Shown: piece after piece, positions 49,732 to 64,000 of the stretch
How the letters are laid out: every line of letters starts with the position of its first letter
How positions within the stretch are numbered: position 1 is the first letter of the stretch
Assembly (NCBI RefSeq): GCF_014695725.1
Contig: NZ_JACJOU010000033.1
Location: 496,001-560,000 of the forward strand
Source: Microcoleus sp. FACHB-672
Lineage (GTDB): Bacteria > Cyanobacteriota > Cyanobacteriia > Cyanobacteriales > Oscillatoriaceae
Length of the DNA: 64,000 nucleotides
Direction: 5' to 3'
Notes under the pieces: model-generated
Seen by the model: the letters and a program-made list of their open reading frames with translations, nothing else
What the model was told of the DNA's origin: nothing
Databases searched by the model: none
Position numbers and translations under genes: made by a program

Positions 49732-51129
49732 TTGACAGAAAATAACAATCTATCCTCTCCCCTCCAGGCCATGTCGCGGCGCGAACTGCGGGAGTTAGTG
49801 AGATCGCAGATGCAAGCGCTGCTAGAACAAGGCGACTTCAAAGGCGCGAAAGCGATTTTAGTGCCGGTGCAGCCGCCAGATATCGCAGAAGCTATCGAAG
49901 GCTTGCCAGAAGCGATGCAAGTCATTGCTTTCCGCTTGCTTTCAAAAGACGAAGCCACTGAAGTTTATGAACATCTCGACTCCAGCGTGCAACAACTGCT
50001 GCTGGAGGACTTCAAGCGCCAGGAAGTGCTTGACATTGTCGATAAAATGTCGCCCGATGACCGAGCGCGGCTGTTTGATGAACTGCCGGCAACCGTTGTT
50101 CGGCGTTTAGGCGAACAACTATCGCCATCGGAATGGCAAGCAACCGCACTGCTATTAGGCTATGAAGCCGGCACAGCAGGACGGATCATGACGCCAGAGT
50201 ATATCTCGCTCAAAGAAAGCTTCACCGTCAGCCAAACCCTGGAACGCATTCGCGCCTTAGCGCCCGTTACAGAAATCGTTTATTACCTATATATCACCGA
50301 TACCGCCCGCCGGCTCACCGGCATTCTGTCCCTGCGGGATCTCGTCACCTCCCAGCCAGACCAGACAATTGGGGAAATTATGACCCGCGAGGTTGTCTCA
50401 GTCAACACCAGTGATGACCAAGAAGAAGTTGCCCGACTCATCCAGCGCTATGACTTTTTAGCAGTGCCGGTGGTAGATCGCGAACAACGGCTGGTGGGCA
50501 TTATCACCGTTGATGACGTGATCGATATCTTAGAAGAAGAAACCACCAAAGATATTTATGCCTTGGGTGGCGTGCAGTCCGACGGAGACAATTATTTCCA
50601 GACCGATTTAATTACCGTCGCCCGTAGACGAGTGCTCTGGCTGTTAGTCTTGCTACTAACAAATACCGTCACAGGCACTATTATCAAATCACAAGAAGGG
50701 CTTTTGCAGCAGGTGGTGTCGCTGGCGGCGTTTATCCCCCTACTCGTAGGCACCGGCGGCAACGTCGGGGCGCAGTCCTCCACAGTCGTGATTCGGGGTT
50801 TGAATACCGATGAAATTCGCGCAATGGGACCCGTCCAGGTCGTTATCCGAGAAGCAATGGCTGGGGCATTACTAGGGGGAATGCTGGGGGCGATCGCAAC
50901 CGTGTGGGCAAGCTTCCTACAAGAAAGTGTGTTGGTCGCGATTACAGTCGGAATTAGTCTAGTGGCAATCGCCATTTTGGCATCCATTGCCGGTTCGGCA
51001 CTGCCGTTTATCTTTCGTGCCTTCAAACTAGATCCCGCGCTGATGTCGGCCCCATTTATCACCACAGCCGTTGATGTCTTGGGCGTCGTTATTTACTTCA
51101 ACTTAGCGCGACTAATTTTGCGGTTGTAG
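49732..51129 (+). CDS. mgtE: Magnesium transporter MgtE
   Basis: The 465-residue protein has the superhelical N-domain (about 20-135; PPDIAEAIEGLPEAMQVIAF, DKMSPDDRARLFDELPATVV), two CBS domains (about 145-275; GEIMTREVVSVNTSDDQEEV, IITVDDVIDILEEETTKDIY) and five C-terminal membrane helices with LVGTGGNVGAQSSTVVIRGL and the end PFITTAVDVLGVVIYFNLAR. MgtE is a Mg2+-gated channel for magnesium uptake. The start is TTG 49732, eight bases after TAGGAGGG, and gives the usual MTENNNLSSPLQAMSRRELR beginning. It has a structured leader. Confidence 0.94.
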   Translation: MTENNNLSSPLQAMSRRELRELVRSQMQALLEQGDFKGAKAILVPVQPPDIAEAIEGLPEAMQVIAFRLLSKDEATEVYEHLDSSVQQLLLEDFKRQEVLDIVDKMSPDDRARLFDELPATVVRRLGEQLSPSEWQATALLLGYEAGTAGRIMTPEYISLKESFTVSQTLERIRALAPVTEIVYYLYITDTARRLTGILSLRDLVTSQPDQTIGEIMTREVVSVNTSDDQEEVARLIQRYDFLAVPVVDREQRLVGIITVDDVIDILEEETTKDIYALGGVQSDGDNYFQTDLITVARRRVLWLLVLLLTNTVTGTIIKSQEGLLQQVVSLAAFIPLLVGTGGNVGAQSSTVVIRGLNTDEIRAMGPVQVVIREAMAGALLGGMLGAIATVWASFLQESVLVAITVGISLVAIAILASIAGSALPFIFRAFKLDPALMSAPFITTAVDVLGVVIYFNLARLILRL

Positions 51130-51475: not shown

Positions 51476-53176
51476 ATGAGCCTTAGCGCGTCTATCACTG
51501 CAATAATTCAGAACGCTTTCTTCAGCTTTCTTAAACTGTGCAATACTGCTCATCGGCTAGAGATAGCAGAGTATATTGCACTCATTTGCTCAATCGTTGG
51601 GTTAATTGCGGCTCTCATATCCGGGCAGATCATCTTTGCCGTTGTTCCCCTAACGAGTTCCGTCGCGCTGAACCTACTCAACCGTTACCGCTACGACCGG
51701 CTCAATTCACGGCGGACGTCGGCGGCCATTATGCGGGTGCAGCAGCAATTTGCCGAAGAGATGCAACTGCTACAAGCCTCAGTGCCAGGAATACCGGCGT
51801 CCTCCCCACTGCCTGATAGCGCTCGTGGCCCCCAGACCTATCCTACAGGAAGCACCGAGATGCCAAAAAAACCTGCCTCGCCACAGGAAGCGCCCGACCT
51901 GACCCCAATTTATCAAAATATCGCCCAGCTACAAGAAGAGTGCGCCACCGTCCAGGAATCTGTTAGCAGCGTCATTCACTACCTCAATAGCGCATCCGTT
52001 GTAGAACGAGTTGACCGCTTGGAACGGACGATGACGCAACTGTCGGAACGCCTTGCTAGTTTGGCCAACCAAATAGAAACCGCCATGCAGCGCCGGTGGG
52101 ACGACAAGCAACAGCCACCGGCACCGGCAGCAGAACAACCCCGCGCCTCCAAAAAGAAAAAATCCGCCGCCGCCCCAGAATTGAGCCAAAAAGAGCCGGC
52201 AGCCCCCACTGCGGTAGCGGAAGCAACCGCGCCCCAACCAACGGCCAAATCCATTCTCCTGCCCAGCTTTGTCAGTCAATCCCTCAATCAAAACTGGCGC
52301 TGTGTGCGTACCCTCACCGGACATACCGACTGGGTGAGCGGATTGGCCATTAGCGCCGATGGCCAGCACTTGGTCAGCGGCAGTTTTGACAAAACCCTGA
52401 AAATTTGGCAGCCCCACACTGGCGAGTTGCTACACACCCTGTCAGCTCATACCAAAGGCATTTTTTCCGTTGCCATTACGCCAGATAGTCAGATTGTGGC
52501 AAGCGGGAGCTGGGATGAGACAATCAAACTGTGGAAGCTAGAAACTGGGGAATTGATGGATACCCTGGCCGGCCATTCCGGCTCCGTGCGCTCCATCACC
52601 ATCAGCCCCGATGGTAAAATGCTCGCCAGTGGCAGTTTTGACGAAACGATTAAGCTGTGGGAGTTGAACACCGGCGTCTTGCAAAGCCGGCTCACGGATT
52701 ATTCCGGGCCGGTTTACGCCCTGCAATTTAGCCCAAACGGGGAATTTCTCGCCAGTGGCGGCGGCGACGGACTGATCCATCTGTGGCAAATGCACACCGG
52801 CGAACATATCGGCACCCTAACGGGAAATTTAGATTTTGTTTGGTCACTCAGCTTTAGTCCCGATACGTCATACCTCGCTAGCGGCAACGGCAACGGCACC
52901 GTTAAACTGTGGGAGTTGGACACCGGCGATCTCATCGCCACCCTCGCCGAGCATTCCGGGCCGGTTTACTCGGTTGCCTTCACCCCCGATGGCCAAACCC
53001 TACTCAGTGGCAGCGCCGACGGCACCGTTAAAATCTGGGATAGGGCATCCGGCAAGCGAGTGCATACCCTGGCAGAGGATAGCAAACCTGCGATCTCCCT
53101 ATCCATCAGCCCTTCGGGTCAACTCCTCGCCATTGGCAGCGCCAACGGCACAATCAAAATTTGGCAGCGAGATTAA
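51476..53176 (+). CDS. LEIAEY membrane-module protein with WD40 propeller
   Basis: The 566-residue protein starts with a polar 20-residue lead, then the module shared by this cluster (about 23-72; RLEIAEYIALICSIVGLIAA, GQIIFAVVPLTSSVALNLLN), predicted as two membrane helices with a short turn. A helical and low-complexity linker (about 73-270, with Pro/Ala/Lys stretch PRASKKKKSAAAPELSQ) leads to seven WD40 repeats (about 275-566; VRTLTGHTDWVSGLAISADG, HLVSGSFDKTLKIWQPHTGE and so on), enough for a complete propeller. WD40 propellers bind proteins. The PLD-like gene follows after nine bases, so the two are co-transcribed. The function is unknown. Confidence 0.87.
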   Translation: MSLSASITAIIQNAFFSFLKLCNTAHRLEIAEYIALICSIVGLIAALISGQIIFAVVPLTSSVALNLLNRYRYDRLNSRRTSAAIMRVQQQFAEEMQLLQASVPGIPASSPLPDSARGPQTYPTGSTEMPKKPASPQEAPDLTPIYQNIAQLQEECATVQESVSSVIHYLNSASVVERVDRLERTMTQLSERLASLANQIETAMQRRWDDKQQPPAPAAEQPRASKKKKSAAAPELSQKEPAAPTAVAEATAPQPTAKSILLPSFVSQSLNQNWRCVRTLTGHTDWVSGLAISADGQHLVSGSFDKTLKIWQPHTGELLHTLSAHTKGIFSVAITPDSQIVASGSWDETIKLWKLETGELMDTLAGHSGSVRSITISPDGKMLASGSFDETIKLWELNTGVLQSRLTDYSGPVYALQFSPNGEFLASGGGDGLIHLWQMHTGEHIGTLTGNLDFVWSLSFSPDTSYLASGNGNGTVKLWELDTGDLIATLAEHSGPVYSVAFTPDGQTLLSGSADGTVKIWDRASGKRVHTLAEDSKPAISLSISPSGQLLAIGSANGTIKIWQRD

Positions 53177-53185
53177 ACAAAGTTC

Positions 53186-54373
53186 GTGAAAACCCGTAAC
53201 GTGCTGGAAATTGCAGAGTTTGTATCCCTCGCCGGCTCAGTCGCGGGATCGGTTGCGGCTGTGTTTTTCCAGCAACTTGTCTATGCAGTCGCGCCCCTGT
53301 CGCTGTCGCTGCTGCTTAACTGGAGTAACCGGCAGCGATTTGAGCTACAGACGCGCCAACAAACTACAGCAGCGATTTCCCAGTTAAACGAGCAACTCTC
53401 TAGCCTCGACGCCGCAAAACAGCAGTGGGCTGAGGCGTTAACTTCTGTGATTCAACGCTTGGAACACGAAGCCCAAAGTATTGAACCGGGGCGGGATATC
53501 TCTGGCTTTCTCTCAGAAATTGAGCAACTGAAAAACCGGCAAACCACCCTGGAAAAATGGCTGGCACCCCTTCAAGTTCAGTTAGACGGCTTGCGAGAGC
53601 AATTTACAAGCCGGCCTGAACTTGAGCAGATTGAAAATTTAGCCCGCGTGATTGTGGCGCTGCAACAGTATCTCGATCGGCTGCCCCCACCAAGCGCGGC
53701 ACAACTGCCGGTTGCCGATTTACAAAAGCAGGTAGAACGGGCGATTGCCAGCATTCCCGCTCAAGTTGAGGCTGCCGGTCACAACCTCATAGAGGAGATA
53801 AACCACCAGCTGCAAGTCATTCAGCAGCCTTATGAGTATGAGCTGGTGATGAAGCGTGAACGCAGCCACTCTCTGCTCGTGGAAGCCCTGGAAAAAGCTC
53901 AAGACCGGCTGATCGTCGTCTGTCCCTGGCTGAGGCGTAGCCGGCTTGATGACACCATGATGCGTAACTTTAGGGCATTGCTAGATCGGCATTGTTGCGT
54001 TGAGATAGGTTGGGGACAAACCACGGATGTGGAAACGCCGGCAGAGTATGCCGCCGGCATCCATCAGTTGCAACAGCTCGTGAGGGAATATCCGGATCGC
54101 TTTAAGCTCAAAGGATTGGCAACCCATGAGAATTTTTTAGTATGCGATTGCGCCTTTGCGTGGGTGGGCAGTCACGATGTTCTCAATGCCGGCACGCAAC
54201 GGGATCGCCCAGAGGTGGGAGTTCGCACCACCGATCCGCGCATCATTCAAGAATTGATCCAACGCTTTGACGAAGCCCAACCGTTAAATTTACCAAGCAG
54301 CCGACTTCTCCCAACCTCCCTCGACCAATTTGCCGATGCAGAAGAACCTGCTGAACCGCTACTCGAAGAGTGA
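53186..54373 (+). CDS. LEIAEY membrane-module protein with degenerate PLD-like domain
   Basis: The 395-residue protein starts at GTG 53186 and begins at once with the module (LEIAEFVSLAGSVAGSVAAV, QQLVYAVAPLSLSLLLNWSN). A coiled coil follows (about 60-200), then a PLD-like domain (about 208-370) with EALEKAQDRLIVVCPWLRRS, VEIGWGQTTD, GLATHENFLVCDCAFAWVGS and REVGVRTTDPRIIQELIQRF. In the place of the H-x-K-x4-D motif it has H-E-N-F-L-V-C-D: the Lys is Asn, and only one motif is present, so catalysis is doubtful. It is probably translated with the WD40 gene. The C-terminal tail is acidic. Confidence 0.85.
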   Translation: MKTRNVLEIAEFVSLAGSVAGSVAAVFFQQLVYAVAPLSLSLLLNWSNRQRFELQTRQQTTAAISQLNEQLSSLDAAKQQWAEALTSVIQRLEHEAQSIEPGRDISGFLSEIEQLKNRQTTLEKWLAPLQVQLDGLREQFTSRPELEQIENLARVIVALQQYLDRLPPPSAAQLPVADLQKQVERAIASIPAQVEAAGHNLIEEINHQLQVIQQPYEYELVMKRERSHSLLVEALEKAQDRLIVVCPWLRRSRLDDTMMRNFRALLDRHCCVEIGWGQTTDVETPAEYAAGIHQLQQLVREYPDRFKLKGLATHENFLVCDCAFAWVGSHDVLNAGTQRDRPEVGVRTTDPRIIQELIQRFDEAQPLNLPSSRLLPTSLDQFADAEEPAEPLLEE

Positions 54374-54863
54374 GCCGGTTGCGAAAGAAAAAATTAAGTC
54401 TTTGGGAGGAAGTTTAAAAGCTTTAACTTATTGCATTATTCTCAAATTAAGACAATCGCTCAACTTTTTCTTTAGCCAGTTTTATCCTAGAACAAGGTTT
54501 AAAACTACTGTCTTTATTGAATTAGGCTGTAGTGAGGGAGAAGTCTCGACGGGAAAACGTTACTTTTTGATATCCGAATCTCAGCGTTTTTTACCTGTTT
54601 AATATTTAGAAGAATTTTTGATGAGAGCGTTAATTAGCTTGACTGAGATATTTTGACTAAATACCTAATAAATAGGTATTTCGATGTATAAAACTATACT
54701 GCAATTATCCGGAATCTGCTATAAATTTATAATGCAAGTTAAATGCAGAAAAAGACCTCAGAAAATCTCAGAATGAACTCGGCAAGATTTGGCTGCGCGA
54801 TTGAGGCAAAATAGAAGGCAAATATCAGGCAAAATGTGGTGGGGTTCTAGAAGTAGGTGAATT
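54374..54863. other. AT-rich spacer with a short palindromic repeat
   Basis: The 490 bases hold no gene with protein character. AAATACCTA (54659-54667) and TAGGTATTT (54673-54681) form a perfect nine-base inverted repeat with a five-base loop, possibly an operator or terminator. The sequence then leads to AGGTGAATTATG at the next gene. Confidence 0.5.
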
Positions 54864-57800
54864 ATGAAAAACAGCTGGCTAGAGATTGCAGAATATATCA
54901 CCATTGCTGGTTCAATCGCTGGATCGGCTGTTGCAGTGCTGTCGCAGCAGCTGGTGTACGCAGCAGCGCCGGTGTCTGCGTCGCTGTTGCTGAACCTGCT
55001 AAACCGGCGGCGGCTAGAGGAACTGGCACCGCCCAGCCCAAACGGAGACGTGACTCAAATTCACCGGCAACTTTCCACCGAGGTGGAATCGCTACGCGCC
55101 TCAGTCAGAAGATTGCCCACTCATGAAGAACTCAGAGGCGTTAAAGAAGCGCTTCAGACAGAAATGCGCCGGTTAGAAGGGCTAGAAACAGCAGAAGGCA
55201 GTGCGGCTGGAGACATCTCCCACATTCACAACCAGTATTCCAGCTTGCTGGAAGCCGTTGCCACCGTAAGCAACCGTTTAGAAGAATTTCCACCAGCATC
55301 AAGAGTGGAAGGTTTAGAAAAAGCCTTCGCCCGAACCACCGAAGAACTCGCGCAACTGGAAAACGAAGTCACTCAACTTCAAACCAACCTGCAAAACCGG
55401 CAAGCTCAAAGCCCAACAGAAGAGCAAGCCCTCACAGCACAAGCTTACTCGCTCCTAGAGCAACAACTCGAACAGTTAAGAACAACCTTAGCCCAAGTCC
55501 AGCAAGACGCCCAAAGTCGGGTGCCGGCGCAAGATTTTAACTCTCTGGTAGCAGCGATGAACGCCCTAGAGCAAGCCGTCGTACCCGCTGCTGGGGCAAT
55601 CTCAGACATCCAAGCGCAGTTAGACGCATTGAGCGAACAAGTCAGCCGGCAGTCCAACGAAACATTGCAAACCACCACGCTACAGCAGCTAGAAGAAGTT
55701 AGAGGTGCACTTGCAGGGTTAGAGCGCCGTATCGATCTAGAAAAGGAAAATTTCACCGCCACAGCGGCGCTAAGCTCAGAAACCGCAGAATTAGCCGACA
55801 TTGAAGCACTTGCCCCACTGAGCAATGCGATTGAGGATATGCGACTGGAATTAGAAGACTTGAGATCGCAGATCAGACAGCGCAGCGGAGTAACATTGCC
55901 AGCCGGCATCTCCCAGCAGCTAGACGAACTGAGAGTATCTTTAAACGAACTAAGTCAGCGTGTAGAAACCGGCAGCATTACCACATCTGCCGAAACCACA
56001 GAATTAGCCGGCAGCGAAGCACTTGCCCCACTGAGCAATGCGGTTGAGGATATACGACTGGAATTAGAAGACTTGAGATCGCAGATCAGACAGCGCAGTG
56101 GGGTAACATTGCCAGCCGGCATCTCCCAGCAGCTAGACGAACTGAGAGTATCTTTAAACGAACTAAGTCAACGTGTAGAAACCGGCAGTATTACCACATC
56201 TGAAACCACAGAATTAGCCAGCAGCGAAGCACTTGCTCCACTGAGTAATGCGGTTGAGGACATACGACTGGAATTAGAAGACTTAAGATCGCAGATCAGA
56301 CAGCGCAGCGGAGTAACATTGCCAGCCGGCATTTTCCAGCAATTAGACGAACTGAGAGAATCCTTTAACCAGTTAAACCGGCGTGTGGATCAACCGGCAT
56401 CTGCCCAAACCGCAGAATTAGTCGGCAGCGAAGCACTTGCCCCGCTGAGCAATGCGGTTGAGGATATACGACTGGAATTAGAAGACTTGAGATCGCAGAT
56501 CAGACAGCGTAGCGGAGTAACATTGCCAGCCGGCATCTCCCAGCAGCTAGACGAACTGAGAGAATCCTTTAACCAGTTAAGTCGGCGTGTGGATCAACCG
56601 GCATCTGCCCAAACTGTAGATTTAGCTGGCATTGAAGAAGTCTTAGCCAAAATCGCCCAATCCGTTGCCGACTCAAAAGCGCAAATAGAAAGCCGGCTCA
56701 TCCAGTTGGAAGCGCGGGAAATTAGCCCCCTTGGGCAAGATGTGGCTCAACTGCAACACGAGTATGCCAGCTTACTCGCCTCCATTGCCGGTTTAATTGC
56801 ACGACTCGACAGTTTGCCAGCAGCATCAAGGGTAGAAGATTTAGAAACAACCTTAGCCCAGCTGGTGGAAAGAATAGAAACCCTACCCGCCGACAGCGTG
56901 CGGCAACCCATGCCGGCAAACCTTGCCATTGAGGGGCAAATCGAGGAATTCAGGAGTGCCTTAGCCGAATTAGAGCGCATTATCCAAAACCCCACCCCCC
57001 AAGCGGCAACAACCACCGGCTTAGAGGAAACCGTCGCCGAAATTCAAGCCGAACTGGCGAACTTGAGAGCGCAAGTCAACCAGCCTTTAGCCGCAATTCT
57101 GCCGGTAGACAGCCGGCTGCAAATAGAAGAAGTCCGAGGCGTCGTTGATGCGCTCAACCGGCGGATCGATGACTTACCGCTGCCAGAACCCGTCGATTTC
57201 ACCGGCGTTGAAGAAGTTTTAAATAAAATCGCCGAATCTGTCGCCGAGGCAAAAGCCCGGTTGGAAAGTCGGCTAGCCCAGCTAGAAGCAGAAATCCACA
57301 ATCTCGCGGATCTCGAACCCGTACCGGGCAACCTTTTGGAGTTGAGAGAACAGTATGCCGGCTTACTAGAATCGGTTGCCGGTGTCACCACACGCTTAGA
57401 TAGCAGCCCATCTAGCGCCAAGATAGAGGAATTAGAAAGAGCCATCACCGAGGCTTGGGAAAGAATCGCTTACCTGCAAACAGCCTTCGCCCAACAACAA
57501 TCTGCACCCGCCTCTGTGGAGGTAGAGCAGCAATTGGGGGAGTTGAGAACCGCTCTGGGGCAGTTAGAAAGCTCTCTAGAGCATTTGGCGACAAAAGCCG
57601 AAGTTCAGCAACATCTGGGAGACATCCAGAAGTTAGTCAGTGATCTGCGGGGAAACACAGCCGGTGCGACGACAGATTGGCAGCAATTGCGCGAAGACGT
57701 TCAATCCTTGCAACAACAAGTAGAAAGCTTGCCGGTAGAACTTCAAGAGCGCATCACTGCGGAACTGCAAGAACCCCTCAACACCCTAAGCGAACAGTTC

Positions 57801-59621
57801 AACCAGCGCCCCGAAAGGCAGCAGATAGAAGAGTTGCGCGAATCCCTCACCCAACTGTATCGGCGGATCAACGTAGAAACGCAAAATTACTCCTCTGAGC
57901 CGGCATTGACTGAATCTGCCGATCTGGCTGAGGTAGAAAGCGTCCTGACGAAAATTGCTGAAGCGGTTGCGGAAGCGAAATCTCAAATGGAAAGTCGCAT
58001 TGCCGAGATTCAATCGGTTGATGTTGATTCTCTGCAAGGAGATATTTCGGGATTGCACGCTGCCCTAGATCGCTTAGAAACCGGGCACATCGCCGCTTTA
58101 GAAGAAGCGATCACGCGACTGCAAACAGATTTGGAAACGGTTTCTAACCGCCCTGCTTCAGATTTTCCCTCACTCAATGTGTCAGCACTATTACCCGTCA
58201 CGTCTGGATTCAATCCAAATGTCGAGAGCGGGTTAGCCGGCGCAACCACCGAACTCGCTAATATCCAACAGTTCGTGACTCAAGCCGTGGAAAATCAGTT
58301 GGGTGAAATTAACCAACTACTCAAAGCCCTACAAACTTGGGAATTCAAGTTAGTATTTGACCGTCCGGGGATTCGAGCCGTGTTGGAAGAAGCCCTAGAA
58401 ACCACCCAACAGCGACTGATTGTTGTTTGCCCTTGGGTGAGCCGATCCAGCCTTGATAGCGACTTACTGCGGAAATTTGAGGCATTTCTGGAGCGAAATG
58501 GCCAGCTCGATATTGGCTGGGGCAACCTCAAAGATATTGATAGCGGTGAGTTTCCGCGAAAAACAGGCCGGCAGTGGCAAAGCAACGACGAGAGCGATAC
58601 TTTGTATGACGCGCTCAACGACTTGGAACAGTTGCAGAGCAAATATCCCAGCCAACTGCGGTTAAAAGTTCTAGGAACCAACGAAAACTACTTAGTGAGC
58701 GATAGCACCAGTGCTCTGCTCACTACTCACAACTTCCTCTCCGCCAATGCCGGTTTCCCCGAACGCGAAGTCGGCGTGCTCACCACCGATCCCCGGATTA
58801 TTCAAGGTTTAATCGACCGCTTTGACGATCCCGTTCTCAACCCCAACAACGCCCACGCCTATCGCCAACGGGGCTTTGAGCGCTTAGATAGCGGCGATGC
58901 CCCATCTGCGATTGAAGATTACACGCAAGCATTGGAACTCGATGCCAACAATGCCAACGTCTATAACAACCGAGGCGTCGCCCGCTCAAATCTCGGAGAA
59001 CACGCCGCCGCCATTGAGGATTACACCCAAGCCTTGCTGATTAATCCCAACGAGGGCGCTTATTACTTCAACCGAGGTTTTTCCCGATCTCACATCGCAG
59101 AATATGCCGGCGCAATTGCAGACTTCACCGAAGCCATTCGCCTGCTGCCTGAAGATGCAGACTCATACTTCCAGCGCGGTGAAGCGTATCGGCTATTAGG
59201 ACAATATCAAAACGCAGTTGCAGATTACACCCAAGGCTTGCAACTCAATCCACAAGATGCAATCGCACACAACAACCGGGGACTAGTCTACTATGACCTA
59301 GGAAATCGGCAGGCAGCCATTGAAGATTACAATCACGCACTACAGATTAATCCTGATGATGCGGTTGCTTACTTCAACCGGGGAGTTGCCCTAGCTGCCG
59401 GCAAAGATTATGCCGGTGCAATTGCAGACTTTAACAGCACACTCGCGCACCATCCCGATCATGCCGGTGCCTATCATAACCGAGGATTAGCCCGTGCAGA
59501 AATCAGAGACCGGCAAAAAGCCATTGAAGATTTACAAAACGCCGCCCACCTCTTTTCCAATAAAGGAGACACCGATAGCGCCCAACAAGCCCTAGACACC
59601 CTCAAAAAACTGCAATCGTAG
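54864..59621 (+). CDS. Giant LEIAEY-module protein: coiled coil, degenerate PLD and TPRs
   Basis: The 1,585-residue protein has the membrane module at residues 3-52 (WLEIAEYITIAGSIAGSAVA, QQLVYAAAPVSASLLLNLLN), about 1,100 residues of Glu/Leu/Gln-rich coiled coil with four near-identical units (about 314-590), a PLD-like domain at about 1155-1322 (EEALETTQQRLIVVCPWVSR, LDIGWGNLKD, LGTNENYLVSDSTSALLTTH, REVGVLTTDPRIIQGLIDRF) and seven TPRs (about 1325-1580; AIEDYTQALELDANNANVYN). At the HKD position it has N-E-N-Y-L-V-S-D, so both His and Lys are lost. The AGGTG before ATG supports the start. A membrane-anchored long scaffold is the simplest reading. Confidence 0.88.
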   Translation: MKNSWLEIAEYITIAGSIAGSAVAVLSQQLVYAAAPVSASLLLNLLNRRRLEELAPPSPNGDVTQIHRQLSTEVESLRASVRRLPTHEELRGVKEALQTEMRRLEGLETAEGSAAGDISHIHNQYSSLLEAVATVSNRLEEFPPASRVEGLEKAFARTTEELAQLENEVTQLQTNLQNRQAQSPTEEQALTAQAYSLLEQQLEQLRTTLAQVQQDAQSRVPAQDFNSLVAAMNALEQAVVPAAGAISDIQAQLDALSEQVSRQSNETLQTTTLQQLEEVRGALAGLERRIDLEKENFTATAALSSETAELADIEALAPLSNAIEDMRLELEDLRSQIRQRSGVTLPAGISQQLDELRVSLNELSQRVETGSITTSAETTELAGSEALAPLSNAVEDIRLELEDLRSQIRQRSGVTLPAGISQQLDELRVSLNELSQRVETGSITTSETTELASSEALAPLSNAVEDIRLELEDLRSQIRQRSGVTLPAGIFQQLDELRESFNQLNRRVDQPASAQTAELVGSEALAPLSNAVEDIRLELEDLRSQIRQRSGVTLPAGISQQLDELRESFNQLSRRVDQPASAQTVDLAGIEEVLAKIAQSVADSKAQIESRLIQLEAREISPLGQDVAQLQHEYASLLASIAGLIARLDSLPAASRVEDLETTLAQLVERIETLPADSVRQPMPANLAIEGQIEEFRSALAELERIIQNPTPQAATTTGLEETVAEIQAELANLRAQVNQPLAAILPVDSRLQIEEVRGVVDALNRRIDDLPLPEPVDFTGVEEVLNKIAESVAEAKARLESRLAQLEAEIHNLADLEPVPGNLLELREQYAGLLESVAGVTTRLDSSPSSAKIEELERAITEAWERIAYLQTAFAQQQSAPASVEVEQQLGELRTALGQLESSLEHLATKAEVQQHLGDIQKLVSDLRGNTAGATTDWQQLREDVQSLQQQVESLPVELQERITAELQEPLNTLSEQFNQRPERQQIEELRESLTQLYRRINVETQNYSSEPALTESADLAEVESVLTKIAEAVAEAKSQMESRIAEIQSVDVDSLQGDISGLHAALDRLETGHIAALEEAITRLQTDLETVSNRPASDFPSLNVSALLPVTSGFNPNVESGLAGATTELANIQQFVTQAVENQLGEINQLLKALQTWEFKLVFDRPGIRAVLEEALETTQQRLIVVCPWVSRSSLDSDLLRKFEAFLERNGQLDIGWGNLKDIDSGEFPRKTGRQWQSNDESDTLYDALNDLEQLQSKYPSQLRLKVLGTNENYLVSDSTSALLTTHNFLSANAGFPEREVGVLTTDPRIIQGLIDRFDDPVLNPNNAHAYRQRGFERLDSGDAPSAIEDYTQALELDANNANVYNNRGVARSNLGEHAAAIEDYTQALLINPNEGAYYFNRGFSRSHIAEYAGAIADFTEAIRLLPEDADSYFQRGEAYRLLGQYQNAVADYTQGLQLNPQDAIAHNNRGLVYYDLGNRQAAIEDYNHALQINPDDAVAYFNRGVALAAGKDYAGAIADFNSTLAHHPDHAGAYHNRGLARAEIRDRQKAIEDLQNAAHLFSNKGDTDSAQQALDTLKKLQS
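55803..56633 (+). repeat. Four near-identical tandem repeats inside the giant gene
   Basis: Copies start at 55803, 56016, 56226 and 56430, with spacings 213, 210 and 204 bases (71, 70 and 68 codons). Each encodes EALAPLSNAVEDIRLELEDL, RSQIRQRSGVTLPAGISQQL and DELR, followed by a variable linker (NELSQRVETGSITTS or NQLNRRVDQPASAQT). DNA identity is very high, which points to recent expansion or gene conversion. Confidence 0.88.
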
Positions 59622-59650
59622 CAAATCTACAGACTGCAAAATCCCAACAT

Positions 59651-59698
59651 AAACGCAGATAAATAATCGTATTTATCTGCGTTTATTTGTGGTTAAAA
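59651..59698. repeat. Dispersed TTATCTGCGTT-type repeat, copy 3
   Basis: AAACGCAGATAAATA (59651-59665) and TATTTATCTGCGTTT (59670-59684) form an inverted repeat with a loop of about five bases, followed by TTTGTGGTTAAAA. It lies 30 bases after the giant gene and may be its terminator. The same words occur at 6810-6862 and 27771-27868. Confidence 0.65.
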
Positions 59699-59803
59699 AT
59701 ATCTAATACACTATTACTTAACAAAATAGCCGTGCCACCTTCAAGAGCGCCCATCATCACCGAAGGCACATAGCATCAACCAAAAACCCTAGAAAATAAC
59801 AAC

Positions 59804-60025
59804 TTATTCTATAACAGTAGAAAGTTCATCCACAATCTTCACCCGTCCCCGGCTCACAGAATGCAGCAGCCGGTCAATCGAAAATCTTTCCTCCTCATCC
59901 AGCGATTCATCCAAAACCGCTGCCATCAACCCATAACGATCAGCAAGCGTAATAGAACCAGAGATAGTCACTTGAGCGAAGAGATCGGAGATAGCGGAGG
60001 GAAGAAGGATTGTGGGAGAAGTCAT
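59804..60025 (-). CDS. Small hypothetical protein, 73 aa
   Basis: The product (MTSPTILLPSAISDLFAQVT, SGSITLADRYGLMAAVLDES, LDEEERFSIDRLLHSVSRGR) is mainly helical and soluble. I recognise the style of a small cyanobacterial family that often stands alone or near stress genes (I-T-x-A-D-R-Y-G-L-M-A, then E-E-E-R), but no function is known to me. The ribosome site is weak. It opposes the giant gene and diverges from aguB. Confidence 0.7.
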   Translation of the reverse strand: MTSPTILLPSAISDLFAQVTISGSITLADRYGLMAAVLDESLDEEERFSIDRLLHSVSRGRVKIVDELSTVIE

Positions 60026-60287
60026 GATGATGGGTTGAACTCGATGTATCTAATATCTCGCCTTTTTCTGAAGTATTGCGTGATGTAACCCGTTCATCGT
60101 TTGTGATAGTTCAAGGTCGAGCACGTGATAGAAACAAAATAACCAAGTGACAGACTTTTTCTATCCCAGTGATGTGTATCACACCTTTGGGAAGGCATGA
60201 AGCATGGGGAATTGAACTTTTTTATAACCGGCATCTCGCCGGCAAGCGTGAATATATATATCAGCCTTCGACGCTAAAAAAACTGAC

Positions 60288-61148
60288 ATGACCCAAAATA
60301 CGACCGTTGCAGCCATCCAAACAGCCTTTTCTGAAGACAAATCCAGCAATATCACCCGGATCAGTCATCTCGTGCGGGAGGCAGCCGGCAAAGGTGCCCA
60401 AATAATTTTGCCCCCGGAACTGTTTGAGGGACATTACTTTTGCCGAGAGGAACGAGAGCAATTCTTTAACAACGCTCATCCCCTAGAGGGACATCCCACG
60501 ATTGCCCACTTTCAGCAGTTAGCTGAGGAATTAAACGTCGTTGTGCCGGTGTCCTTTTTTGAAAAAACCGGCCCGGCTTACTACAACAGTGTGGCGATCA
60601 TCGATGCCGGTGGCTCAGTCTTGGGAGTTTACCGCAAAAGCCACATTCCCGACGGCCCAGGCTACGAAGAAAAATTTTACTTCCGCCCTGGAAATACCGG
60701 CTTCCGAGTCTGGGCAACTCGTTTTGGCCGGCTTGGCGTCGGCATTTGTTGGGATCAGTGGTTTCCAGAATGTGCTCGCTCAATGGTCCTCATGGGAGCC
60801 GAACTTTTACTTTATCCCACAGCCATTGGCAACGAACCCCAAGATTTAACCCTAGATACCAAAGATCCTTGGCAGCGAGTGATGATCGGCCATGCCGTCG
60901 CTAATACTGTGCCGGTTGTTGCAGCGAACCGTGTCGGGTGCGAAGGCGGACAAACTTTTTATGGTCATTCCTTTATCGCCAACCACCGGGGAGACAAAGT
61001 TGCAGAACTCGGACGGGTAGACGAAGGCATCATTTACGCCACATTTAACCTAGCCGAACTTGCCCTAAGCCGCGCCTCATTCGGCTTATTCCGTGATCGC
61101 CGGCCTGAACTTTATAGCACACTCACCACTGCCGACGGAACCACTTAA
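60288..61148 (+). CDS. aguB: N-carbamoylputrescine amidase (nitrilase superfamily)
   Basis: The 286-residue enzyme hydrolyses N-carbamoylputrescine to putrescine, CO2 and ammonia, downstream of arginine decarboxylase and agmatine deiminase. The catalytic triad is visible: Glu in IILPPELFEGHYFC, Lys in LGVYRKSHIPDGPGYEEKF, Cys in LGVGICWDQWFPECARSM. The stretch YYNSVAIIDAGGSVLG and the C-terminal end match this branch well. The length is normal. Putrescine made here could feed the spermidine synthase at 9978-10934. Confidence 0.94.
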   Translation: MTQNTTVAAIQTAFSEDKSSNITRISHLVREAAGKGAQIILPPELFEGHYFCREEREQFFNNAHPLEGHPTIAHFQQLAEELNVVVPVSFFEKTGPAYYNSVAIIDAGGSVLGVYRKSHIPDGPGYEEKFYFRPGNTGFRVWATRFGRLGVGICWDQWFPECARSMVLMGAELLLYPTAIGNEPQDLTLDTKDPWQRVMIGHAVANTVPVVAANRVGCEGGQTFYGHSFIANHRGDKVAELGRVDEGIIYATFNLAELALSRASFGLFRDRRPELYSTLTTADGTT

Positions 61149-61491
61149 TTTCCCAAAATTTTTCTAATTCCCTAATCCGGGACTCTAATCCCAACGACTG
61201 CTGCCGGTGGGTAAAGATATTATAGATTTTCTTGCCGGCCCCAAAAATGCTCGATCTTGCCGGCTTCGGCCAACGCTAGATCACAGAAACATCATTCAAA
61301 ATGGTATCAAATCGGAAGTTATACTAACATCTAGCAGACTGAGTGCCCAGACTGCAATTTTAACCCGCAGATGGCCCTTTAGGGAAACAGTTAGGGGCAA
61401 AGGTAGGGCACCCGGTTAAACACTTACCCCGGCACGTTTGCAGGTTGCCGGCAGCCGTCTTACCTTGGCTGAAAGTGTGGTTGCCGGTGAA
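61149..61491. other. Spacer after aguB, nothing recognised
   Basis: The 343 bases include a 70-codon frame (61207-61419) without protein character. Many GCCGGC words occur. No hairpin with a T-run was found. Confidence 0.5.
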
Positions 61492-61698
61492 TTAATTAGG
61501 AAAAGCGTCGAGCAGATCGTCTAGGTATGCTTCTGCGTTCGTCGTCTCGATGGCCGCTTTCTTCGCTTTATCCTTAATCGACTTGAGTACCAAACGAACA
61601 ACCCAAGAGGACAGGCGCGGGTTGTTATCTATCTCCGAGATCAACGCTTCTAAATCGTTAATCATGGCCATCAGTTGCAGGTTGCTGTCTTGTAACAT
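61492..61698 (-). CDS. Small helical protein, 68 aa, unknown
   Basis: The product (MLQDSNLQLMAMINDLEALI, SEIDNNPRLSSWVVRLVLKS, KAAIETTNAEAYLDDLLDAF) looks like a compact helical bundle, without Cys or membrane segments. Starts at 61698, 61668 or 61662 are possible; none has a strong ribosome site, so the call is moderate. No partner gene is near. Confidence 0.5.
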   Translation of the reverse strand: MLQDSNLQLMAMINDLEALISEIDNNPRLSSWVVRLVLKSIKDKAKKAAIETTNAEAYLDDLLDAFPN

Positions 61699-62216
61699 GG
61701 CTGAGGCTATCTCCCATTTTCTGTTTTAACGATTCACGGTAGCTAGGACAGATATTTACTGTCAGAGGGTTGAGGGACTTAGTAACATCGGGTGCGACTA
61801 AACTGCGATTCACGCCCTCTATTGCTGCATATAAAGTAAAAAATTTAAGGGGGCGCGTATGCCAGTTTTGTGCCACTCCTTCAGCCGACTAAACAACCTG
61901 AAGGAAAATCAGGTTCAAATTCTTTATGAAAAAGAGGCGCGAAGCCTTACTCATCACAAATTTTTAACTGGGTGTGCCAGTAGTGACAAGTTTTTAGCAG
62001 CTACCAGTAGATGCCGGTGAGAGTAGACACTTTGGAAATTGGCACAACTTAAGGGCTAGCTGCAGAGAAGAGGTGCATTAGGAAATAGGAAGGAGCGGAA
62101 ACAGGAAAGAGGGCTGCCGGCGAATGAAGGGACAAGAGCTGTCCCGCCTGTGTGAAGGGATAAAGGATAAAAGACAACTGACATTTTGAGGTGCAATCTT
62201 GAACTACACTACAGCC
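61699..62216. other. Spacer before the coiled-coil LEIAEY gene
   Basis: I find no convincing gene in this 518-base spacer. It contains several purine-rich runs (around 62060-62180). GAGGTG at 62189-62194 lies before a TTG (62199), but the start of the next protein is better placed at ATG 62217. Confidence 0.45.
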
Positions 62217-63143
62217 ATGCGGAATACAGAACCATCACTCAAAGCTGTGAGGAACTCTCAGAAACCGGGTCAGCGGTTAGAGCTGGCCGAATACGCCTCT
62301 CTGGTTGCCTCCGGGGTGGGAACGATTGTCGCTGCCGTATCGGGACAAGTTGTATATGCGGCGGCTCCGCTGACGCTCGCCCTCTCGCTAAATATGGTCA
62401 ACCGGCAGCGATTTCTGGCACAGACAAAGGCTATTGAGCAAAGCACTAGCGCAGCCATTTCGCTTTTAGAACACGAACTCCGGGGCGACATTCAATCGGT
62501 GCGAAGCTCATCACAAATTACACCGGCTTCTGAACGCCTTCGGGATCTCGAAGCCTCAATGCTCAGGCTGAGTACGCTGTGGGTTCAGCTACAACAGCGC
62601 CTTGAGCGCTCATCTGCGTCTTTGCAAGATCCGCAGATTCAGGAAGAGTTTGCAATTGTTCGCAGAGCAATTGTTCGCTTACGCGACAGCACGAATGTCA
62701 ATATCGCGGAAGTTCGTCAAGGTCTGGCAGAGGAAATTGAGTCCTTACGGCAGATGGTGAGGCAGCCAGTACAGCCGGCAGAATTGCTAACCCCAACATC
62801 TCAACTCACCTCAGCAGATGAAGTGCCGGCTCAGATCGCCCAATTGCAACAGCGGGTTGAACAGCTAGAGCAGAAGAATCAGCAGATTGTCAAGCCCTAT
62901 ATTAAACGCCTCGTCATGGAGGTAAAGCAACTGCAACAGCAATCGGACACCGAACCGATCAAAGCCGCACTCGCCGGCTTGAGTGTGCAGATTGAGAATC
63001 TTGCTCAAGAACTTGAAACCCAAATCGAGCCGCACCAAATACAGGGGATGCACTCCGCACTATCGAGGCTCTCAGAAAATATTGCGGATCGCCAACGCGG
63101 TGCCGGAATCGAGCCGCAGCGGGTTAGAAGTATTGAAACCTAA
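62217..63143 (+). CDS. LEIAEY membrane-module protein with coiled coil only
   Basis: The 308-residue protein starts MRNTEPSLKAVRNSQKPGQR, then has the module (LELAEYASLVASGVGTIVAA, GQVVYAAAPLTLALSLNMVN, RQRF) and about 240 residues of coiled coil (LAEEIESLRQMVRQP; IAQLQQRVEQLEQKNQQIVK). No PLD, TPR or WD40 part is present. The start at 62217 rather than TTG 62199 is supported by the gene at 63838, which starts MQKIEPSLQTV, so E-P-S-L-x-x-V is conserved at the same distance from the ATG. It could be a partner subunit of the larger members. Confidence 0.82.
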   Translation: MRNTEPSLKAVRNSQKPGQRLELAEYASLVASGVGTIVAAVSGQVVYAAAPLTLALSLNMVNRQRFLAQTKAIEQSTSAAISLLEHELRGDIQSVRSSSQITPASERLRDLEASMLRLSTLWVQLQQRLERSSASLQDPQIQEEFAIVRRAIVRLRDSTNVNIAEVRQGLAEEIESLRQMVRQPVQPAELLTPTSQLTSADEVPAQIAQLQQRVEQLEQKNQQIVKPYIKRLVMEVKQLQQQSDTEPIKAALAGLSVQIENLAQELETQIEPHQIQGMHSALSRLSENIADRQRGAGIEPQRVRSIET

Positions 63144-63202
63144 GCCAATGCAGCCTAGCATCTAGGAAATTTGAACCGGCTGATTGTCTATTTTGTGCCT
63201 AA

Positions 63203-63739
63203 ATGTTGCAGATTACAGCATCCACTAACCTCAACATCCTGCTCGAAAATCTCCTCTTTCTAGTTATATCCACCTCTTTTTTAGGGTTTGTCGGTTTTTT
63301 GTGGCGAGAATCAAAGCCTTTTAGCCTTCCGCAACCGCTGCCGGCGTGGTTTTCTGCATGGTTGGCTATTGTGCTGGTGGTAGGCTTGGCGCTTCCTTTG
63401 GTGGTAATGATTGTGTGGGGCGTTTGGTGGGGCAATCGAAGCGTGTTGCAAACCTTGATTCCCTACTTTGTCCTACTCGCGTTGCAAATTTTATCCGAAA
63501 GTGTAACCCTAAAACAATTTCAATCGTGCGTGTGGGTGTTGATTCCTTGTCTATACCTGCCTTACCGTTTCTGGCAGCTATATTGTGGATTAACACTGGT
63601 TAGTTTTGATACTGAGTTAATTTGGGTACAGAGGTTATTGGCTGTTGAGATCGTCCTTTGGATTTTTAACTACGGTGTACACCTATCGCAGATTCCACGC
63701 CTTATGCGTTGGGAAATTCAGCCGCAAAGTGATCGTTGA
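63203..63739 (+). CDS. Membrane protein of unknown function, 178 aa
   Basis: The product has four to five hydrophobic helices (LENLLFLVISTSFLGFVGFL, WLAIVLVVGLALPLVVMIVW, PYFVLLALQILSES, VWVLIPCLYLPYRFWQLYCG, AVEIVLWIFNYGVHL) and no charged motif. I do not recognise it. It sits 59 bases after one LEIAEY gene and 98 bases before the next, on the same strand, so it may belong to the same unit. Confidence 0.75.
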   Translation: MLQITASTNLNILLENLLFLVISTSFLGFVGFLWRESKPFSLPQPLPAWFSAWLAIVLVVGLALPLVVMIVWGVWWGNRSVLQTLIPYFVLLALQILSESVTLKQFQSCVWVLIPCLYLPYRFWQLYCGLTLVSFDTELIWVQRLLAVEIVLWIFNYGVHLSQIPRLMRWEIQPQSDR

Positions 63740-63837
63740 AAAACTTCAACATCCGTTCTAAAACCTGAATGTTTGCTGAAAACTCGGTGCAATCACGCCT
63801 AAAATTGCGGGAAGGCATCTTAAGCGACTCTGAAATT

Positions 63838-64000
63838 ATGCAGAAGATAGAACCCTCACTCCAAACTGTGACAACCCCTACTGTGGCAAACCCTACTGTG
63901 GCCAACCCTCTGAGCCGCCGGCATTGGTTAGAGCTGGCTGAGTACGCCTCGATTGCCGGCTCGGCTGTGGGAACGCTGGCGGCGGCAGTCTCCCAGCAGT
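63838..64000 (+). CDS. LEIAEY membrane-module protein, cut by window end
   Basis: The first 54 residues are visible: MQKIEPSLQTVTTPTVANPT, a duplicated PTVANP, then HWLELAEYASIAGSAVGTLA and AAVSQQ, the first half of the module. This is the fifth member. The part beyond the window decides which C-terminal domain it has. TCGACTC-like and AGCGACTC words precede the ATG but there is no clear ribosome site. Confidence 0.82.
   Translation, partial: MQKIEPSLQTVTTPTVANPTVANPLSRRHWLELAEYASIAGSAVGTLAAAVSQQ

Follow-up and report, generated by a model that had tools for sequence, protein, structure and literature searches.

A hydrophobic module with many C-terminal partners in cyanobacteria, examined from a gene cluster of Microcoleus sp. 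FACHB-672, as a probable membrane anchor

Why would neighbouring genes on one strand encode proteins that begin alike and end in entirely different domains? The question is raised by a 64,000-nucleotide stretch of the Microcoleus sp. FACHB-672 genome (contig NZ_JACJOU010000033.1, positions 496,001 to 560,000), here called the window, in which five forward-strand genes (51476, 53186, 54864, 62217 and 63838) have in common a hydrophobic module of about 50 residues. The window sits in a 590-kb contig, and the genome searched amounts to 6.37 Mb. The answer that we consider rather probable, though far from certain, is that the module, near the N-terminus of its cyanobacterial proteins, acts as a membrane anchor and assembly tag behind which the cytoplasmic cargo can be exchanged.

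The shared module and the genes of the cluster

A first-pass annotation, made from the letters of the window, had proposed that these five genes share one module. Alignment and a six-row profile bore this out and added a sixth gene just past the window end (L003:15026–17140, equal to window 65026–67140). The six cluster modules align with 15 invariant columns. Searched against the genome, the six-row profile recovered the six cluster genes with E-values of 2e-29 to 6e-28, along with a seventh, lone copy on contig C12 (E 6e-23) that encodes a 201-residue protein with the C-terminal end RRYHW. Among 69 diverse rows, the Glu of the ‘AEY’ motif, the Gly 10 residues later and the Arg of the ‘NR’ motif were invariant (69/69 each), and the Pro of the second hydrophobic stretch was present in 68. 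The span from Glu to Arg covers about 40 residues and holds hardly any charge, and an R or K stands two places past the invariant Arg in 62 of the 69 rows. Each of 134 module genes encoded one module per protein (independent E-value < 1e-4), which began no more than 60 residues into the mechanical open reading frame (ORF) in 129 of them and at residue 128 at the latest. The five gene starts given earlier were correct as well: 62217 and 63838 are in-frame ATGs within longer ORFs (from 62199 and from 63769, the latter L003:13769), and the 63838 protein starts with MQKIE, as do two homologues.

The view that the module lacked a known description also held, as no library family fitted the 69 rows. 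No Pfam family matched more than one of the 69 modules (best E 0.013), no NCBIfam family matched more than two (best E 0.0089), a PDB sequence search with the module profile returned zero matches up to E 1, and PHROGs gave weak matches alone over the module (best E 0.0062). Likewise, no description of the module was found among the titles and abstracts retrieved in a literature search. The module is real, has no described family in the libraries searched and is broader than first reported.

Two candidate relatives were rejected. Kinship with the two-helix SLATT families was limited to a match of NCBIfam SLATT_1 in one of the 69 rows at 0.076, with none in Pfam up to 0.1. CAAD (PF14159), which we take to be the CurT/CURT1 domain, presumably also found as an appendix of aminoacyl-tRNA synthetases, resembles the module as a cyanobacterial hydrophobic module in proteins of very different length (CAAD ORFs of 141–1194 aa). 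However, the two have different partners and no sequence relation (hhalign probability 1% over 15 columns against a 20-sequence CAAD alignment), and CAAD was absent among the Pfam matches of the 69 modules.

The cluster opens with module protein 1 (51476–53176, 566 aa), whose module (51548–51709) is followed by a linker and seven WD40 repeats forming a propeller (52310–53170, ends approximate; Pfam, E 3e-80). Directly upstream lies a gene for an MgtE-type Mg2+ transporter (49732–51129, forward strand, 465 aa), a neighbour kept at some module genes. Nine bases separate the first gene from the second, as had been noted. Module protein 2 (53186–54373, 395 aa, GTG start), with a Microcoleus vaginatus metagenome-assembled genome providing its closest named relative found (94% identity), combines its module (53195–53356) with a coiled coil and a phospholipase D (PLD)-like domain (53864–54277) that carries HxN...D in place of HxK...D; its score against PLDc_2 (PF13091; E 3e-6, 27.6 bits, cut-off 27) places it in the PLD fold. 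Module protein 3 (54864–59621, 1585 aa) consists of the module (54870–55031), a long coiled coil, a PLD-like domain with NxN...D that was recognised by its own profile (58371–58832) and a TPR region (58833–59612, ends approximate; Pfam, E 8e-43). The WD40, PLD and PLD plus TPR ends that had been assigned to these three proteins thus agree with the library and profile matches. Module protein 4 (62217–63143; module 62271–62426) has a tail with a KPYxxRL block. Module protein 5 (63838–64000, continuing to 64674, L003:14674) pairs a coiled coil with the same block, and its module (63919–64000, continuing to 64080) is cut by the window end. Unrelated genes stand within the cluster, namely an N-carbamoylputrescine amidase gene at 60288 and one for a DUF7733 protein at 63203.

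C-terminal partners, spread and gene neighbours

The spread of the module was investigated in cyanobacterial genomes, the sole phylum searched. The profile search and C-terminal tally that the annotation had called for returned many matches with varied C-termini. At E 1e-3, 388 genomes of the class yielded 222 with a match to the six-row profile, spread over 108 of 160 genera; a module that has no Pfam or NCBIfam family is therefore present in more than half of the sample. All eight genomes of the window's family possessed it, with 5 to 8 copies each, as did 47 of 57 genomes in one other family. A 69-row profile matched 76 of 386 genomes in a phylum-wide sample, all within the window's class, the share of that sample from outside the class being unstated. 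A tblastn search with one 61-residue module found none among 72,556 plasmid and 50,697 phage records.

The C-termini proved interchangeable to a greater extent than proposed. In 114 genes, we distinguished thirteen C-terminal categories by local sequence searches and patterns: WD40 (28), PLD plus TPR (24), helical with a KPYxxRL block (19), nothing recognised (16), PLD (8), actin-like (4), helical ending in RYHW (4), TPR (3), a Myb-like end (2), pentapeptide repeats (2), an unknown C-terminal domain (2), FtsZ (1) and HTH_25 (1). The loci were chosen from the match lists for diversity, not randomly; the 114 genes are the 134 minus L106, L107, L108, L123, L124 and L125, which hold the same or nearly the same genes, and ten later genes of family f28 are in neither number. 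Pfam and NCBIfam confirmed examples of the WD40, TPR, PLD, FtsZ, pentapeptide and HTH_25 types, and the Myb-like end reached E 0.0023 in L110, below its cut-off, with no Pfam match in L045. HTH_25 was confirmed by Pfam in L212 and four more proteins. The proteins of family f28 (L212, L296–L305) measure 203–250 residues, bear the module close to their N-terminus and end in a RodZ-type HTH_25; ten of them, of 203–233 residues, showed the same HTH_25-like end by eye (10/10), and four of these ten were Pfam-tested.

On a tree of the modules, the C-terminal type required at least 37 changes, compared with 68–81 in 200 shuffles, indicating that the types are partly inherited and partly swapped. Swaps look frequent; for instance, L212, an HTH_25 form, branches together with the PLD-TPR protein of its own genome (support 89). 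The tree was built on 57 module columns, with 10 of its 110 inner branches starred, and as well-supported branches are few, single swaps are tentative. The FtsZ fusion (L050:4500–6155 in genome G378, 551 aa) is FtsZ by TIGR00065 (313.5 bits, cut-off 295.2), and the same genome holds an ordinary FtsZ besides. Among the matches listed for 291 genomes of the order, L050 alone matched across the whole fusion, which makes it a single case.

The PLD-like domain departs from the PLD catalytic motif, HxK(x)4D. In all 40 PLD-bearing module genes (32 without 8 near-duplicates) the catalytic Lys was absent, with Asn instead in 30; His was present in 17 and Asp in 40, so the phosphodiesterase/nuclease motif is not complete. 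Loss of the Lys throughout fits binding rather than catalysis. The domain is hardly a phosphodiesterase of the usual kind, and a binding role would suit its residues better. By PF13091 the L073 domain scored 30.7 bits, and L193, PLD-like by our own profile, had no Pfam PLD match at 0.01. The best PADLOC match of the PLD part was MkoB of the Mokosh system (53186, 6e-19; L073, 1e-20; L220, 2e-15; L079, 2e-6).

The clustering of module genes was kept throughout the window's family, with at least two module genes within about 20 kb in 8/8 genomes. The window cluster can be divided into two halves, [WD40, PLD, PLD-TPR] and [helical, helical, WD40]. In genera g162 and g163 the two halves are separated, either by about 1 Mb or by lying on different contigs (L111/L112; L115/L116), whereas genus g161 has most of both inside some 11 kb, with the PLD-TPR gene and one of the helical genes located elsewhere (L118, L120, L121). 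Few clusters were seen outside the family. Of the listed matches, just those in the window's genome and in G397 lay within 20 kb of one another, G397 having three inside 5 kb; Laspinema palackyanum (L109) has one adjacent pair. Dense clustering characterises one family, and the module is a reusable part across the class. Lone module proteins of 183–201 residues in L113, L117, L119 and L126 share a conserved RYHW-like end, perhaps a docking signal.

Two recurrent gene pairs give direct, testable handles on function. Of the 114 module genes, 112 of which had an upstream neighbour in view, 12 are directly preceded on their own strand by an MgtE-type gene. The gap between the two measures 4 to 346 bases (4 in L190 and L197), and the cases come from no fewer than eight families. 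Nine of the genes behind mgtE encode WD40 forms and three other types, such that the cargo seems swapped in the same slot. On the module tree the mgtE-linked genes required at least 6 changes, against at least 9 in 200 shuffles. The linked mgtE was the sole mgtE in four of eight genomes (G018, G342, G171, G348). Seven module genes have a Ser/Thr kinase gene beside them, which in six cases shares their strand, and the order is not fixed. No paper joining MgtE, WD40 and cyanobacteria was found.

The second pair involves the actin-like form. In four loci (L059, L062, L065, L074) the module and a coiled coil are followed by an actin-like domain of about 450 residues, in which GIDFGT, GDGTLDG and GGGGG stretches, presumably actin-superfamily motifs, were conserved in 4/4 genes. 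Pfam at 0.01 gave no such fold for the domain, nor did any PDB sequence match it meaningfully. Directly downstream, an SNF2 helicase matched DrmD over its full length (1015.6 bits in L074, 992.1 in L059). Across the class, 28 of the 376 genomes searched contained the actin-like domain, and the helicase followed in the same direction in all 12 loci fetched (L312–L323, four of them already known). The module was visible in 11 of the 12; the twelfth (L313) is the L065 gene, whose module falls outside the flank of L313 and was seen in L065. Five genomes gave weaker actin-like matches, with ORFs of 492–566 residues. Upstream of the pair we observed an ABC transporter in L074 and a transposase in L059, and downstream in L261 genes resembling AAA/WD40 and HTH/AAA proteins by eye.

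A putative membrane anchor and its alternatives

In the arrangement that we favour, two short hydrophobic helices would enter the membrane from the cytoplasmic side. The first helix would begin with the invariant Glu and the second would end with the invariant Arg, with both residues on the cytoplasmic side of the membrane, where they could pair inside one chain or from one chain to another; the positive-inside rule predicts that the two ends of the module face the cytoplasm. The module and the coiled coil behind it would build oligomers, the latter serving as spacer and oligomeriser, and the cytoplasmic C-terminus would set what is tethered. Cargo would be of three kinds: binding platforms (WD40, TPR, pentapeptide), the PLD fold without Lys, and filament-forming or filament-binding parts (FtsZ, actin-like, RodZ-type HTH). 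The module would thus tie scaffold repeats, a Lys-less PLD fold and cytoskeleton-type proteins to a probable membrane, and a name for it would link many proteins whose annotation is at present confined to their WD40 or TPR parts. The same anchor may serve several pathways, mostly WD40 forms at MgtE and actin-like forms alongside the DrmD-like helicase, and several module proteins may co-assemble in the window's family, giving the six cluster genes a putative joint role.

A number of observations weigh against this reading. Kyte-Doolittle means in the six cluster members ranged from 0.81 to 2.04 for the first stretch and from 1.20 to 1.79 for the second, mostly below 1.6, the usual mark for membrane helices; given these modest values, insertion of the module into the membrane is likely, not certain. 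A structural model of the module (18 sequences) had a predicted local distance difference test score (pLDDT) of 61 and consisted of one continuous helix, and a model of the whole 53186 protein (4 sequences) had a pLDDT of 42, both too weak for a fold search. The two-helix membrane hairpin proposed at the outset is suggested by the charge-poor stretch of about 40 residues between Glu and Arg and runs counter to the low hydropathy and the single-helix model; with one continuous helix in a weak model, the hairpin is something that we infer. The coiled coil that had been placed after the module was supported in four of the six proteins, where the seven-residue periodicity exceeded nearly all of 300 shuffles (reached by 3 for 53186, 0 for 54864, 7 for 63838 and 1 for 65026), and was at shuffle level in 51476 (138/300) and 62217 (83/300). 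No paper was found localising any protein shown to carry the module.

Gene context provides further points of this kind. Outside the window's family most module genes are solitary, and with at least two unrelated contexts besides, a single joint role, suggested earlier from the cluster, is not supported for the module in general. The annotation had held that homologues occurring singly and without domain variety would speak against a system; the genes are indeed mostly solitary outside the family, but their C-terminal variety is wide. Next to mgtE, the module was found in one of 30 fetched loci from a sample of 59 class genomes, the linked copies G000:C33 and G051:C39 being among the 68 mgtE matches listed but outside these 30, so the link is a property of some lineages and not of mgtE generally. 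From the unrelated gene contexts, the module may even be a mere hydrophobic tail without a common task. In its full form that explanation, a plain N-terminal tail that duplication and fusion have carried from gene to gene and that confers neither a common assembly nor a common function, would account for unrelated C-termini and contexts and for the rarity of clusters beyond one family. It strikes us as very unlikely, since three invariant residues and a small-residue pattern in 69 diverse rows exceed what hydrophobicity needs, and exactly this tail would have had to be fused repeatedly.

The resemblance of several parts to defence proteins raises a different explanation, in which the module brings sensors and effectors of anti-phage conflict machinery to the membrane and the window cluster is a lineage-specific immune island. 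MkoB, the best PADLOC match of the PLD part (6e-19 for 53186, 1e-20 for L073), is a membrane protein, and Mokosh consists of a PLD protein together with a COG1112-type helicase. The distribution is patchy (222/388), the actin-like form accompanies a full-length DrmD-like helicase in 12/12 loci, and in L261 this pair sits between a transposase gene and AAA/WD40- and HTH/AAA-like genes that have the look of a conflict island by eye. Beta-propeller, TPR and pentapeptide repeats are known in conflict systems of multicellular bacteria, according to the available part of PMC7159879. The effector-associated domains (EADs) described in that part are likewise small domains with many cargo domains and several paralogues per genome; they differ in joining effector or signalling domains to NTPase systems (PMC7159879), whereas here the module is hydrophobic, the PLD fold has no Lys and the window cluster showed no recognisable NTPase of this sort. 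Unlike in MkoB and MkoC of Mokosh, the catalytic Lys is lost in 40/40 module PLD domains, and inspection by eye of the ORFs flanking the window cluster, which were not scanned with models, revealed no helicase; no paper was found joining Mokosh, phospholipase D and transmembrane. No effector domain appeared among the Pfam matches listed for the window's module proteins, the neighbours in the window include housekeeping genes (mgtE, N-carbamoylputrescine amidase), the gene clusters are kept in 8/8 family genomes and the single 61-residue query had no match in the plasmid and phage records. A conflict role for the module as a whole is therefore unlikely in our estimate, and one is possible for the actin-like/helicase pair. 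DISARM class 1 unites a methylase with drmA, drmB, drmC and drmD. The helicase that accompanies the actin-like form does match DrmD over its whole length, but here it belongs to a two-gene pair, and drmA, drmB and drmC were not noticed by eye in the ORFs around and downstream of the pair in three genomes, which were not scanned with models. The pair is a candidate defence system, not DISARM as far as seen.

A third explanation, which appears quite unlikely, would make the module proteins organisers of thylakoids, or of contacts between thylakoid and plasma membrane, in the manner of CurT or AncM, the hairpin bending or joining membranes and the coiled coils bridging them. Its appeal comes from the presence of the module in cyanobacteria (the one phylum searched), from the succession of hydrophobic stretch and long coiled coil, and from FtsZ and actin-like ties that recall the CurT-FtsZ link reported in the available part of PMC12462475. 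The absence of a match in 166 of 388 class genomes and of any sequence relation to CAAD (the 1% hhalign probability above) argues against it.

These comparisons leave the membrane anchor and assembly tag with interchangeable cargo as the reading that we prefer. The FtsZ, actin-like and RodZ-type HTH cargo suggests an overlap with cytoskeletal anchoring. As with ZipA, SepF, ZipN and RodZ, the module would tether FtsZ- or MreB-type polymers to the membrane, and some members carry a RodZ-type HTH_25; the difference is that the module here has FtsZ itself (in one genome) or an actin-like domain as its fusion partner, and that the RodZ-type domain is C-terminal. A more far-reaching version, which we hold to be doubtful, would see a general cyanobacterial membrane platform, co-assembled through the module and including membrane-fused FtsZ and actin-like proteins, one branch of which would be a two-gene defence system of a membrane-anchored actin-like sensor and an SNF2 helicase, presumably somewhat similar to Zorya. 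Cyanobacteria are said to be without ZipA and FtsA in the accessible text of PMC7766704, and coiled-coil-rich cyanobacterial proteins such as Syc2039 (PMC7002697) are among the nearest comparisons. No bench test of a scaffold or conflict role was found in the literature, including the available portions of PMC7002697, PMC12462475, PMC13353191, PMC7766704 and PMC7159879.

Side features of the locus

Between module genes 4 and 5, positions 63203–63739 encode a 178-residue hydrophobic protein assigned to DUF7733 (E 1.7e-7). The coiled coil of the 54864 protein contains four near-identical repeats (55803–56516) spaced 68–71 residues apart. The open frame of this gene comprises 1586 residues here versus 1731 in a sister genome, and consequently the copy number of the repeats may vary. 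Downstream of the sixth module gene, L003:17183–18829 encodes a protein with a twin-Arg-like leader (by eye), relatives of which also adjoin module genes in L115 and L118. It is followed on the opposite strand by a gene for an 84-residue protein (L003:18846–19100), with relatives near module genes in L053, L109, L118 and L208.

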